From Snodgrassella alvi wkB2 (GTDB lineage: Bacteria; Pseudomonadota; Gammaproteobacteria; Burkholderiales; Neisseriaceae): DNA of 64,000 nucleotides. Below are positions 32,170-38,102 of the stretch, in pieces. The translations under genes and the position numbers were made by a program. How positions within the stretch are numbered: position 1 is the stretch's first letter; each line of letters starts with the position of its first letter. The stretch is from the NCBI RefSeq assembly GCF_000600005.1, contig NZ_CP007446.1:1328894-1392893 (forward strand), in the 5' to 3' direction. Below the pieces are notes generated by a model. The model did no database searches. It worked only from the letters and a program-made list of their open reading frames with translations, and was not told the DNA's origin.

Positions 32170-32260
<91 letters not shown>

Positions 32261-32311
32261 GATATTCAATAAAATCAAGCGGTTAAGTTGCATTCTTGGT
32301 TTTGCCCCACA

Positions 32312-32348
32312 AAAAAGCCCACAATAGATTGCCTGTTGTGGGCTTTTT
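32312..32348 (+). terminator. Terminator downstream of tRNA-Ser
   Basis: AAAAAAGCCCACAA / TTGTGGGCTTTTT inverted repeat, about 50 bases past the tRNA, with flanking A and T runs so it could act in both directions. Confidence 0.88.
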
Positions 32349-32391
32349 CATTCTTGTCGATGGACGTGCCACATCCTCGCTTTTATTGCTA

Positions 32392-32694
32392 TCAGTAAGG
32401 GTACTGACTGGACAGTCCCGAGTAGTTTGCCGCGATCCAACTGATAACTTTAGAGCGCCCCTGAATGTTGGATGGCAATTTTTCGTGGATCATCCACTCG
32501 CAAATTTGGCGGGTACGAACCGAAAGATCGACGTTGTTTGCCCCTTTGAGCGAGTTCAGCAGGTCAAGCACCTCATAGCCTTCCTTTCGGCTAAAGCGGT
32601 CAGCGTCTTCTACCTTTTTCTTCGGATCGTCGCCCGGTACAGCCGTCCAACTGTAATCGGTGTAGTTCAGGTTATTTTTTTGGATCGCAGGCAT
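32392..32694 (-). CDS. Hypothetical protein in integrative-element scar
   Basis: I do not recognise this 100-residue protein. It is hydrophilic, begins MPAIQKNNLNYTDY and has an AGAAGGAG ribosome-binding site at a good distance, which supports a real gene. A helical Lys/Asp/Glu-rich middle and a C-terminal half with several Trp and Ile residues suggest a small globular protein. Its codon use and GC are higher than the surroundings and resemble the neighbouring gene at 32.8-33.1 kb. Probably mobile-element cargo. Confidence 0.6.
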   Translation of the reverse strand: MPAIQKNNLNYTDYSWTAVPGDDPKKKVEDADRFSRKEGYEVLDLLNSLKGANNVDLSVRTRQICEWMIHEKLPSNIQGRSKVISWIAANYSGLSSQYPY

Positions 32695-32763
32695 CTAGAA
32701 CTCCTTCTGGTTGTCAAGTTTTTTCTTACTTGGGGCCAAATACCCACTCTTCAAGAGTGGTAA

Positions 32764-32792
32764 TGAAAAAAGCCCGGTGCAATGGCCGGGCG
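32764..32792 (-). terminator. Terminator after the 32.8 kb gene
   Basis: GCCCGG / CCGGGC hairpin with an eight-base loop. On the minus strand it is followed by a TTTTTTC run, about 25 bases past the stop. Confidence 0.75.
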
Positions 32793-32814
32793 AAGTCCCT
32801 TTGGCACTGGGAAT

Positions 32815-33108
32815 TCAGATGCGAACGCGCGTCGAAGCTTTCGCCGCAAGCGTCGGGTTGTAGAAGCTGGTGCGAACGCTGCCGATGATCTTGTCGAACT
32901 TCAACGCAAGTTCCCGATGCGCGATGCTGTCTGTCATGCGCTTGTTGACGTCTGAAACCCAACTTTTCATCGTATCGTAACGAAACTTCGAATGGGTTTT
33001 GGCATTGAAGCAAACAAGGAAGCCGCGCGAATGAAAGATGACACCGGCAACGTCATTGCTTTCGAGCATCGCCGCACGCACCTTCGCCGGACGGCCTGCT
33101 TGCTTCAC
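32815..33108 (-). CDS. Hypothetical protein in integrative-element scar, possibly 5'-truncated
   Basis: A 97-residue basic protein of unknown function. The only start candidates are a GTG at the opening and an ATG 13 codons later. The frame is open a little further upstream (reading KRNWEYSREQ before the GTG) until a stop, so the original N-terminus may have been lost when the upstream integrase decayed. Residues GRPAKVRAAMLESNDV and KSWVSDVNKRM look like DNA-binding or regulatory helices, but no family was recognised. It ends at a terminator. Confidence 0.5.
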   Translation of the reverse strand: MKQAGRPAKVRAAMLESNDVAGVIFHSRGFLVCFNAKTHSKFRYDTMKSWVSDVNKRMTDSIAHRELALKFDKIIGSVRTSFYNPTLAAKASTRVRI

Positions 33109-33109
33109 C

Positions 33110-33800
33110 TGTTCGCGGCTATATTCCCAATTTCGCTTTCATGGCTGGCGCGCGATGACATGTTTTCGTGCTTACGCAGTCGACAATAAACATGCTGATT
33201 TCGCGGTAGGATAAGGATAGTTGCGCCTTCACTTCTCAACCTACCTTGCCAAGTATTGGTCCTAGCGCTCTCTTCCCTGCGACGAGGTTGTCATCTTCGC
33301 AGTATTCCATCGCTTTTGCATAATCCAAGATGGTTTCGATGCACCCGTGAAGGTAGTTCTCTCTTTAATCTTCGTCTGCCATATAGATTTAAGCACGGTG
33401 ATAACATCGGACTTCATAATATTTTTACGATAGGTTCGACAGTAATCGGTTAAGCGTAGGTTTGAAGCTTCGATTTCCATTGCATGCGTACTTGGGTTCG
33501 CGCGAATCGTTCACAATCACGACTAGGGCGCATTCGCGGAACGTCTTTACCTTCGATTAATGAATGCGCAAGGCTTCGCAGTCTTGTTTCTCTGTTCGAT
33601 GGGTCGATATACTGCTTCAAACTTATTTACAAAGTTAGCAGGTCTTGTCGCGAGCTTCGATCAACGAAACTTCAGGTTAACTGCCTAGTCGTTCTCCCTA
33701 CCGATGCACTATAGACTTGCCATTGTCTTTCTATCATGTCCGTCAGCTACGCGCACCACTTATACCCAGAATCTCCCAACGATGCGCAGAGGCAGTCTTT
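33110..33800 (-). pseudogene. Decayed tyrosine-recombinase (P4-type integrase) pseudogene
   Basis: Pieces of an integrase are readable in different minus-strand frames, separated by stops and frameshifts. Near 33688-33640 the frame reads LGS*PEVSLIEARDK, the usual N-terminal SAM-like arm motif. Near 33495-33410 it reads MQWKSKLQTYA. Then comes KSDVITVLKSIWQTK, and after a shift IETILDYAKAMEYCEDDN, the core-binding domain pattern. Near 33230 it reads LSYREISMFI, matching the start of the catalytic domain. The catalytic Arg-His-Arg-Tyr part is not found. It sits ~1 kb from tRNA-Ser, a normal integrase neighbourhood. Relics of this kind mark a dead genomic island. Confidence 0.75.
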
Positions 33801-33849
33801 CTGCACCGTTTACGGCATGCCGTCCTATGCTAATCAACTTTAACAGACT

Positions 33850-34426
33850 AAATAATTATAAAACGGATATATTACTACGATAATTTTATTCAAATTTCAT
33901 TTATCTAGCTTAAAGTCGAAGATAAAAAATAAAATACTGCATTGAATTACACATTAAAAAGGAAAGTAGATTGTAAAAAAGCTAAGATAAAGACTGATAA
34001 GCCTTAAGCAAAACCTTTAACCTGCTGATCACAGTTATTTCCAAAATATTAGAATATTTTATAAGAATAAGTCTAAGTAAATTGCATAATGAAATAAATA
34101 ATTTTTACCACTCATTTCACTATTCTTGGTTGGCAATATTTCTGCCAATTATCAAAAAAATTTTTGATATTAATGCTTTAATGGGATAAATAGCAGAAAA
34201 CTGCATAGACTGTCTTAGCTAGAAAATATTAGTAGAAATGACTACTCTATACGAAAGATTATCTACTTATAAAAAAACTAAATTCTTACTATAGTTTTTA
34301 AAAGATACAGCAAATAATTGTGATATGTAAAATAAAAGTTTTGCGTCGATATCATGAAACTTTTATTTTACAATTTTAACATACATATCATAGACATATT
34401 TTTTATACTCTACCATGTGAAACTAA
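33850..34426. other. AT-rich noncoding region
   Basis: About 580 bases after the integrase scar with no reading frame, repeat or hairpin that I can defend. The sharp drop in GC at about 33.84 kb marks the edge of the foreign segment. Confidence 0.5.
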
Positions 34427-34780
34427 TTAACTATTTCCGAAATCATGATGCTTGATTCGCTGATAGTTATACCAGTTTGTTTGATTTGACATCAAATTAG
34501 GTTGATTTTGTTGTAGTTCAGAATATTTGGAATTACCATCTTTCAGCTCGGCATTATCTTCAGTACTACTGGATCCTGAAGATAAACTTGTCTGAACATG
34601 TTGCTGAAACTCCATTTTCCGGGCTTTTTTATCCAGCATTGATATATGAATTTCTGTATCATAAATGCTTTTCAGTTCGAGCAATTTTTGATAAGTAGCA
34701 ATCAACTCTTTATTATCAGGAGTTCGCATGATTTGCCCTTCAAGAAATTCACGGCATTTATTAAACTCTTCAGTTCTCAT
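34427..34780 (-). CDS. Hypothetical protein, coiled-coil and Ser/Asn-rich tail
   Basis: This 117-residue protein begins MRTEEFNKCREFLEGQ. The first ~65 residues are a charged helical region with heptad-like Leu and Ile spacing (ATYQKLLELKSIYDTEI), which may form a coiled coil. The remainder is Ser/Gln/Asn-rich and probably disordered. No signal peptide and no family recognised. It stands alone in an AT-rich region; coding is likely from the continuous sensible composition but not certain. Confidence 0.5.
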   Translation of the reverse strand: MRTEEFNKCREFLEGQIMRTPDNKELIATYQKLLELKSIYDTEIHISMLDKKARKMEFQQHVQTSLSSGSSSTEDNAELKDGNSKYSELQQNQPNLMSNQTNWYNYQRIKHHDFGNS

Positions 34781-35465
34781 GGCTAATATATTAAAAAAAA
34801 TCTCAATATCTAAATTTTACACCATTTACAGAAATTAGCATTGAAAAATTGAATTAATATTCAAGTTATTCAGATATTATTAATCTAAATATCTGATATT
34901 ACATTCGTTAAAAAATTTATCTTTATTCTCACAAATACGGGAATAGAGAAATTTAAAATTCTGAATCAAAATTTCAAGTACTTTTTTCTCAAAATATTAG
35001 AGATATAAGCAAAGCAATTGCACAAAAATTAATCACGCTTAAATTGGATTGATTCACCTTGTTTTTTTATAGTTATCCACAGATATACTCACAAAAATTG
35101 TGAAATTCTGAAGGAATTTAAAATGATAATAAAGGCTGAATAATAAAAATAACCAATCATATATATATGTTTTTAAAACAATTTTACTTCATTAAGTAAA
35201 TTGAAAAAGTAAAACAACATAATTGAAATTCAAGTTCAGTAGCTCCAGACGTTTTGAATTAAAAGCATCCTGACAAACGCTCACAATTTCTATTTGTATA
35301 AATTTTGTTTCAATAATATTGATGATGCACTATAAAATTATACAAAGTAGGAAATTGAGACTTGAATTCTTCAATAAACATAAATAAAAAATATTAAATA
35401 TATTTAGGTTGATTTTTTATAAATCAATAATTTAAATCTAATCAAAATATTTATCCATACTGGTA
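34781..35465. other. AT-rich region with a DnaA box
   Basis: About 690 noncoding bases upstream of the clpB promoter. One perfect consensus DnaA box, TTATCCACA, lies at 35073-35081, and a one-mismatch version, TTATCCATA, at 35451-35459. No dnaA, dnaN or other origin-linked gene is nearby, so an origin is not claimed. Confidence 0.4.
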
Positions 35466-35496
35466 CTTGACATTAATTTTCTGATACCAATATATC
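35466..35496 (+). promoter_or_regulatory. clpB promoter, sigma32-like and sigma70-like
   Basis: CTTGAC at 35466-35471 and ACCAATAT at 35486-35493 with a 14-base spacer resemble the heat-shock sigma32 consensus (CTTGAA / CCCCATNT). The overlapping TTGACA and ATATAT with a 17-base spacer also form a sigma70 promoter. Heat-shock control of clpB is expected from other proteobacteria. Confidence 0.6.
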
Positions 35497-35525
35497 TGTT
35501 AATGAAAATATAACTAAAGGAAATT

Positions 35526-38102
35526 TTGATGAGATTCGATAAGCTTACCGCAAAGTTTCAGCAAGCTTTACAAGATGCACAAAGTCTTGCTTTAGGACAG
35601 GATGCTGGTTATCTGGAAGCCGTATTTATATTGAAGGCTTTAATGAATGATAATGATAGTGGCTGTGCTGCTTTACTTACCCAGGCTGGTGCAAATGTTG
35701 CACAGGTTAAACAGCAGGTTGACTCTACTATTAATGGTTTACCCAGAGTATCCGGTCAGGGTGGTGAAATCTTACCCAGTACTGAATTGCAGCACATTCT
35801 CAATCTGATGGATAAAGCTGCTATTAAACGTAATGATGCTTATATTGCCAGCGAGTTGTTTTTGCTTGGCGCTGTTCAGGAAAACGGACAATGCGGACGT
35901 ATTCTGAAACAGGCTGGTGTTACAGAAGATAAATTGAATTCGGCGATAGATGCCGTTCGCGGAGGCGCAAGTGTGGATAATCCTAACGCAGAAGATCAAC
36001 GAGAAGCGTTGAAAAAATATACAACCGACCTGACTGAAAAAGCACGTTCGGGTAAGCTGGATCCTGTAATCGGGCGAGATGATGAAATCCGGCGCACTAT
36101 TCTGGTGCTTGAACGGCGTACTAAAAACAACCCTGTACTCATCGGTGAACCGGGTGTAGGTAAAACTGCTATTGTTGAAGGTTTGGCTCAACGAATTGTG
36201 AATAATGAAGTTCCAGATTCTTTGCGAAATAAGCGTTTGCTTTTACTGGATCTGGCTAGTTTGATTGCCGGTGCAAAATTCCGGGGTGAATTTGAAGAAC
36301 GCCTGAAAGCAGTACTTAATGATCTGGCTAAAGACGAAGGCAATACCATTATTTTTATTGATGAAATACATACACTGGTAGGAGCCGGTAAAGCCGATGG
36401 TGCTATGGATGCAGGTAATATGCTCAAGCCGGCTCTTGCACGGGGTGAATTACATTGCATCGGCGCGACAACATTGGATGAGTATCGTCAATATATTGAA
36501 AAAGACCCTGCTCTGGAACGTCGTTTCCAGAAAGTACTGGTAAAAGAACCGACAGTTGAAGATACCATTGCCATTTTACGTGGCTTACAGGAACGCTACG
36601 AAATCTATCATGGCGTAGAAATCACTGATCCGGCAATTGTAGCTGCTGCTGAATTATCTAATCGTTATATTACCGACCGTTTCTTACCAGATAAAGCCAT
36701 TGACCTGATTGATGAGGCTGCATCATTAATTAAAGTTGAAAGCCAGTCTATGCCTGAAAGTATGGACAAGCTTAAACGCCGTGAAATACAGCTGGAAATT
36801 GAACGCGCATCTCTGGTGAAAGAAGATGATGAAGCCAGCAAAAAGCGTCTGGCACTGCTGGATGAAGAGCTGGATAATGTTAAGCGTGAGTTTGCTGATC
36901 TGGATGAAATCTGGAAAGCAGAACGAGCCAAAGCTCAAGGCAGCGTTACAATTAAAGAGCAGATTGATCAGCTAAAAGTTAAGATGGATGCGCTTAAGCG
37001 TAATGGTAAATGGGAAGAAGTGGCCAAGCTGCAATATGAAGAATTACCCCGGCTTGAATCCCAGTTACAGGCTGCTGACAACGGGCAGCAGAATAATCAG
37101 CCTAACAAGCTGCTACGCACTAAAGTAGGCTCAGAAGAAATTGCCGAAATTGTTTCGCGTATGACCGGTATTCCGGTATCCAAAATGATGGCTGGTGAAC
37201 GGGAAAAACTATTGAGAATTGAAGAAGTATTGCATGAACGTGTAGTGGGACAGGATGAAGCTGTACGCGCTGTAGCAGATGCAATCCGCCGCTCACGCTC
37301 CGGTTTATCAGACCCGAATAAACCATATGGCAGCTTTTTGTTCCTCGGCCCCACCGGTGTAGGTAAAACAGAGTTGTGTAAAACTCTGGCAAGCTTTTTG
37401 TTTGATAGCGAAACCCATCTGATTCGCGTAGATATGTCGGAATATATGGAAAAACATTCCGTTGCGCGTTTGATTGGTGCGCCTCCCGGCTATGTTGGTT
37501 ATGAAGAAGGTGGTTTTTTGACTGAGCAGGTACGCCGCAATCCTTATAGTGTGGTTTTGCTGGATGAAGTTGAAAAAGCTCATCCGGATGTATTCAACAT
37601 TTTGTTACAAGTTTTGGATGATGGTCGTTTAACTGATGGTCAGGGACGTACAGTTGATTTCAAAAATACGGTTATCGTTATGACTTCCAATATTGGCAGC
37701 CAGGAAATCCAGAAAATGGAAAGCGATGATTATGCTGCGATTAAGGCAGTAGTAATGGATGAAGTTAAACAATACTTCCGCCCTGAACTGATTAACCGTA
37801 TTGATGAAGTTGTTGTATTCCATAGTCTTAACCAATCCAATATTCGTGCTATCGCTAATATCCAGCTTGCCGGTCTGCGTCAGCGTCTGGAAAAAATGGA
37901 TTTACATTTACAGGTTGATGATGCCGCTTTGGATGTACTGGCTAAGGTGGGATTTGATCCGGTCTATGGCGCACGTCCTCTGAAACGGGCTATACAGACT
38001 GAAATCGAAAATCCACTGGCTAAAGAATTACTGGCTGGAGACTATGCTCCTAACAGTACAATTATGTTAACGGCTCAGGATGGTATTTTGACTTTTGCCT
38101 GA
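35526..38102 (+). CDS. clpB: ATP-dependent chaperone ClpB
   Basis: A hexameric Hsp100 disaggregase that threads aggregated proteins with DnaK. The 858 residues show an N-terminal Clp domain (1-145). NBD1 has Walker [10 protein letters not shown] and Walker [14 protein letters not shown] coiled-coil middle domain spans about 400-520, and NBD2 has [10 protein letters not shown] and [13 protein letters not shown]. The [18 protein letters not shown] stretch is typical. A sigma32-like promoter precedes it and a strong terminator follows. Start ATG has AAAGGAAA upstream. Confidence 0.98.

Follow-up and report, generated by a model that had tools for sequence, protein, structure and literature searches.

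Probable remains of a collapsed integrative element at tRNA-Ser, retaining one intact small gene, in Snodgrassella alvi wkB2

The 1.6-kb segment that lies directly 3' of tRNA-Ser(UGA) in Snodgrassella alvi wkB2 is most probably (probability roughly 0.8) what is left of a collapsed integrative element that targeted tRNA-Ser and had an arm-type tyrosine integrase. This segment (positions 32279–33849, the insert) belongs to a window of 64,000 nucleotides (G000:C1:1328894-1392893), the whole stretch of DNA analysed, taken from a genome of 2.53 Mb in a single contig; all positions refer to the window. The insert contains a small gene (gene A), the remnant of a second gene (gene B), and an integrase relic, all three on the minus strand. 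The genes on either side of the tRNA are, by their sequence, yaaA-like and clpB-like. The features of the locus are as follows.

32170–32260, plus strand: intact tRNA-Ser(UGA) (anticodon TGA in the DNA), called by ARAGORN and Rfam
32312–32348, no strand: terminator-like 16-bp hairpin followed by T's, between tRNA-Ser and gene A
32392–32694, minus strand: gene A, encoding an intact 100-aa protein of phrog_33929 (PHROGs E 3.2e-43, full length)
32701–32706, minus strand: ribosome-binding site AAGGAG, 6 nt ahead of the gene A ATG
32744–32760, no strand: CCACTCTTGAAGAGTGG, a perfect palindrome of 17 bp that lies upstream of gene A
32772–32791, minus strand: terminator-like hairpin behind the gene B fragment, in a block conserved at the DNA level in genomes G045 and G977
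32815–33108, minus strand: gene B fragment, the last ~95 codons of a longer gene (35% identity over 89 aa with a G045 protein)
33109–33146, no strand: predicted deletion junction between the gene B fragment and the integrase relic, 38 bp assigned to neither neighbour
33147–33849, minus strand: integrase pseudogene, residues 12–250 of 426 by frameshift-aware alignment, with 9 stops, 5 frameshifts, and no catalytic domain

The insert differs in composition from its surroundings. Its G+C content is 0.49 compared to 0.24 at 33850–34426, and it is G+C-rich throughout (0.47–0.54 by part). Gene A and the gene B fragment have a G+C content at third codon positions (GC3) of 0.62 and 0.68, respectively, versus 0.29 in the yaaA-like gene and 0.34 in the clpB-like gene. 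The original prediction had described higher G+C and a different codon style behind the tRNA, together with two small open reading frames (orfs), one of which has a very good ribosome-binding site; composition and codon usage bear this out, both orfs are open, and the ribosome-binding site is the AAGGAG of gene A. The tRNA is the presumed integration target, and its 3' end the presumed left attachment site.

The integrase was examined by local protein-to-DNA alignment allowing frameshifts, run on the raw strand, with an intact 426-aa integrase from an Acinetobacter baumannii record (L076) as the query. The relic scored 294, compared to a maximum of 49 among 200 dinucleotide shuffles of it; the opposite strand reached 30, and reversing the protein gave 32. 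On the minus strand, the aligned path extends from 33849 to 33147 with identity in 93 of 240 columns, and the four peptides from which an integrase relic had been predicted fall in order within this single alignment. Five other integrases scored 123–254 against the relic, values that no shuffle reached (largest, 53), and those of Acinetobacter (294) and E. coli (254) scored highest. When the window was divided into 140 overlapping tiles, the N-terminal half of the integrase matched a single place, the next best unrelated place scoring 47, and the catalytic half (residues 251–426) gave background only (median 32, at most 44 across the insert and 52 elsewhere). On sequence grounds, 33147–33849 is the remnant of an arm-type tyrosine integrase, a pseudogene lacking the catalytic half. 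It shares with the arm-type (P4-like) tyrosine integrases (Arm-DNA-bind_3, Phage_int_M, and Phage_integrase) the arm-binding and core-binding regions, both present in the frameshift-aware alignment, but differs from them in its missing catalytic domain and its stops and frameshifts.

Because hmmscan of the three minus-strand single frames, with X at stops, found no Pfam match to the relic, the frameshift-aware alignment was needed. In tblastn searches with read-through pieces of the relic, 17 records of the plasmid collection (E 9e-30) and 17 of 274 genomes of the class, its own genome included, contained matching integrases. A nuclease identity of the relic was dropped after the plasmid matches. 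Since these pieces were chosen by eye, the proof of an integrase rests on the shuffle scores and the window tiles.

The second small orf aligns to residues 181–269 of a 269-aa protein of G045, with the end stretch SFYNPTLAAKASTRV in common; the match (E 1.7e-13) was the first hit, G045 being one of the 398 genomes of the phylum that were searched. The first 180 residues of the G045 protein gave background scores across the window tiles (best 56, outside the insert), and at least 170 residues are missing from the window copy. As judged by these alignments, the orf is a 3' fragment cut short by a deletion, not an intact gene. The homology begins just inside the orf, and the integrase alignment stops at 33147 (residue 250), which sets the borders of the junction between them. 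A structure model of gene B made without an alignment had a mean pLDDT of 49.5 and was not used.

Gene B is rare. Protein and DNA searches found no match to it in phages, plasmids, or viral contigs, and among 83 genomes of the family, 398 of the phylum, and 369 of its own class, only its own genome and G045 have it. In the class of G045, gene B is present in 3 of 289 genomes (G045, G775, and G977), which are three of the seven from G045's family; all three relatives thus belong to another class of Pseudomonadota than the window. Of the three, the G977 gene is nearest to the window copy (64% over 55 aa). At all four loci, the window included, gene B lies behind (3' of) a tRNA-Ser and faces it, with other orfs in between in G775 and G977, where no tRNA 3'-end repeat was found. 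The DNA block just behind gene B is common to the window, G045, and G977; in G775, it is not clearly present.

In G045, the gene B homologue lies on the minus strand directly behind tRNA-Ser(CGA) and faces it, followed by a gene for a 471-aa protein ("ATPase-like", assigned by eye), a gene for a 106-aa protein along with other orfs, and a minus-strand integrase gene. This integrase has the Arm-DNA-bind_3, Phage_int_M, and Phage_integrase domains in Pfam, i.e., the arm, central, and catalytic domains, and two other proteins of the element that were tested had no Pfam match. About 150 bp beyond the integrase start is a 14-bp repeat of the tRNA 3' end; none of 500 shuffles gave this 14-mer. The whole unit is about 7 kb, with a G+C content in 1-kb steps of 0.45–0.64 compared to 0.62–0.71 further out, and is the one intact element of this layout that was found. 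P4-like satellites, PICMIs, and similar small satellite-like elements carry a fixed-site integrase and cargo genes within a small size. The G045 unit shares these traits but has its integrase at the end far from the tRNA with the N-terminus outward, and a satellite lifestyle is putative for it, given the two proteins without a Pfam match.

The window matches the layout of G045 in that gene B, here a fragment only, stands at tRNA-Ser and faces it, and a minus-strand integrase stands at the far end. The middle genes of G045, such as that for the 471-aa protein, are not in the window, as just 38 bp separate the gene B fragment from the relic. Nor are the two integrases close relatives: the G045 integrase scored 140 against the relic (33 on the other strand), within the 123–143 of unrelated-looking integrases, so that the relic being the same integrase as that of G045 is unsupported next to the 294 and 254 of the Acinetobacter and E. 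coli enzymes. The link between the window and G045 therefore comes from gene B, the gene order, and the target rather than from closeness of the integrases. Given the gene B relatives at tRNA-Ser and the intact G045 element, what collapsed in the window was most likely an element of the G045 layout.

We then compared this site among genomes of the genus. The segment occurs in 1 of 14 genomes, its own; it was not found in the 13 others, among them 11 with a completeness of at least 90%. Twelve of the 14, counting the own genome, have the tRNA and its left flank, and none of the 11 relatives' regions behind the tRNA has the window segment. What these regions contain differs, several having other genes and some a cassette in common, and the clpB-like gene is kept on the right in 6 of the 11. 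One relative (G009; L030, G009:C34) has an integrase right behind tRNA-Ser, on the tRNA strand and split over two orfs, a sign of repeated use of this site; genes that we named by eye as phage-like follow the split integrase. A dead element at this tRNA, as originally predicted, is supported by a real tyrosine-integrase relic and by the presence of the segment in this genome alone among the 14.

Other regions behind this tRNA show features of their own. A second tRNA-Ser-like stretch lies about 0.8–1.1 kb behind the first in two relatives, G003 (L010/L019) and G002 (L008/L018); ARAGORN called that of G003 as a full tRNA-Ser(TGA) and did not call that of G002. These stretches may be another integration scar or a tandem duplication. 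Two more (L025 in G004 and L026 in G005) have large orfs behind tRNA-Ser that resemble, by eye, contact-dependent toxin modules.

From the tRNA to a 117-aa gene on the right, one relative (G007) has 606 bp compared to 595 bp in the window minus the insert. The G007 spacer and the window flank gave an alignment score of 87, which is not above chance (shuffles up to 97), and since the spacers fail to align, a clean insertion is argued by length and composition only. Another relative (G012) is without the 117-aa gene and has about 0.5 kb from the tRNA to the next matching stretch; the spacers of the others are longer. A direct repeat of the tRNA 3' end near 33.8 kb, proposed as a check of the original prediction, was not found: the best local match to the tRNA in 32261–36000 is 10 bases, and the last 16 tRNA bases match only one other place in the window (26449, other strand, 3 mismatches), which we took as chance. 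The insert thus has the tRNA 3' position and the variable presence of tRNA-targeted integrative elements but, unlike G045, no far-end repeat.

An alternative is two unrelated scars joined by deletion or recombination, in which gene A and the gene B fragment would stem from a different island at this tRNA than the element that left the integrase relic. The variability of the site speaks for it, with the segment in none of the 11 relatives' regions, other genes in several, and an integrase in G009, as do the relic's being no closer to the G045 integrase than to random ones and the occurrence of gene A and gene B together in the window only; G045, G775, and G977 gave no match to gene A, and the 22 other gene A loci gave none to gene B. 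However, the order and orientation of tRNA, gene B, and integrase are those of the one intact G045 element, and the G+C content is high across the whole insert. We regard two scars as unlikely, though far from negligible.

The relic's N-terminus faces outward on the right and the gene B 3' fragment lies to its left. Under the preferred reading of a single collapsed element, the element would have recombined into the 3' end of tRNA-Ser, by which the tRNA was restored, and gene A would have been cargo lying between the tRNA and gene B. The 5' part of gene B, the genes of the middle, and the catalytic half of the integrase would then have gone in an internal deletion that fused integrase residue ~250 to gene B residue ~175. 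The first codons of the integrase, along with the right attachment site, were probably lost separately, which would be why no tRNA repeat is left in the window. Stops and frameshifts would then have gathered in the remaining integrase, and gene A remained intact. The scar is unable to move itself.

The event had been called old. The heavy decay of the integrase agrees with this, yet the GC3 of the inserted genes is far from that of the host, and the age stays uncertain; fast decay or decay before arrival would each fit this mismatch.

If selection had kept both small genes, as the original prediction had suggested, each would be functional, the gene B fragment as a short protein. Both orfs are open next to 14 disabling changes in the adjoining 703 bp of the relic; gene A has none, and at the relic's rate about six would be expected in each orf (P about 0.002–0.003, by our own arithmetic with equal exposure assumed). 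Against this, gene B has lost at least 170 residues of the G045 version, and it is shortened in G977 (75-aa frame) and G775 (161-aa frame) too. Function of both is improbable: gene A is a plausible survivor, and gene B is better seen as a deletion remnant. An ancestral chromosomal segment lost in the relatives, with no mobile element involved, would have to account for the integrase relic, the alien GC3, and 13 other genus genomes without the segment, and can be dismissed as highly improbable.

Gene A belongs to phrog_33929, a family without an assigned function, and also matches the C-terminal half of phrog_32103. It has no Pfam or NCBIfam match, and no family among the PADLOC defence models matched it at E up to 1. 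Its protein is 77% identical to one of Cupriavidus necator pHG1 and about 52% identical to small E. coli and Salmonella plasmid proteins. Further relatives were found at six loci among the GTDB species genomes, in three other genomes of the 398 of the phylum, on seven IMG/VR contigs, and, by DNA, in seven E. coli chromosomes. Compared to three close relatives, gene A has a nonsynonymous difference of 0.14–0.16 and a synonymous difference of at least 0.69, which places the family, taken as a family, under purifying selection. Decayed copies, their frames lost, are found in Acetobacter (L033, beside an integrase) and on an E. coli plasmid (L053), and another copy (L049) has one stop inside.

The AlphaFold model of gene A has three helices and a mean pLDDT of 68, with residues 14–35 poor. 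With this moderate model, Foldseek found no match at E ≤ 0.001 in the PDB and the viral library, and VIA-align, run on 66 chains, found none at Z ≥ 5. An operator role of the palindrome was rejected, as it is not found upstream of 15 gene A relatives, five of which have other palindromes. The literature searched holds no mention of phrog_33929 or of four gene A protein accessions.

Gene A neighbourhoods were inspected at 23 distinct loci, the window included; three of the seven matched E. coli chromosomes and two of ten E. coli plasmid records were opened. Ten of the 22 other copies lie in P2-like phages or prophages, in the stretch from the replication gene to the portal gene (some of the phage genes were named by eye; L080, L081, and L082 have one flank off the contig). 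This gpA-gpQ region of P2-like phages is a hotspot of anti-phage systems, as described by Rousset et al. (2022; PMC9122126). The window locus, by contrast, is not a P2-like prophage. At one of the ten loci (L085), an AbiL-like pair follows gene A; at L050–L052, also P2-like prophages, an annotated ParM segregation gene lies between the replication gene and gene A.

Five of the remaining 13 loci have a defence gene nearby. On pHG1, GajA and GajB precede gene A and Avs1 follows it; on the E. coli plasmids, a HindIII-family enzyme is encoded 65–86 bp downstream; a CBASS effector and cyclase are near gene A at L048; a ThsB-type TIR gene is about 1.4 kb away at L035; and a weak AbiD/PD-T4-5-like gene is about 2.8 kb away at L047. 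At the other eight, the window among them, no defence gene was recognised within 3 kb (L034 and L036 end at a contig edge). As the ten neighbour proteins included in the PADLOC scan were chosen by eye as likely defence genes and the counts have no random-gene baseline, the link to defence is suggestive only. A general partnership of gene A with HindIII-type enzymes was rejected, the enzyme having been seen on the E. coli plasmids only. In a Halomonas MAG (L031, 10114–11855), macro-domain and DarT-like genes, named by eye, lie 4–5 kb from gene A; this pair was not seen at the otherwise near-identical locus of Pseudomonas abyssi.

We hypothesize, with low confidence, that gene A encodes a small, defence-linked protein of phage-host conflict; if it still works here, it would most likely be cargo, a small protein with a part in conflicts of phages or mobile elements with their hosts. 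A more specific proposal, possible but on the doubtful side, is that phrog_33929 is an unrecognised accessory conflict gene (a regulator, helper, or guard of defence systems) carried by P2-like phages, small plasmids, and tRNA-linked elements and retained here as the only part of a dead element that still works.

As an element, the insert is a dead representative of a known kind; no description of the tRNA-Ser/gene B/integrase layout was found in the literature searched. The locus indicates that an integrative element can collapse to a permanent scar while one cargo gene remains intact, and gene B ties this scar to a layout of tRNA-Ser elements that occurs in two classes of Pseudomonadota. The gene A family is small, widely scattered, and uncharacterised, and has recurring members both in a hotspot of phage defence and next to known defence systems; in this genome, gene A may be the sole useful part left of the element.
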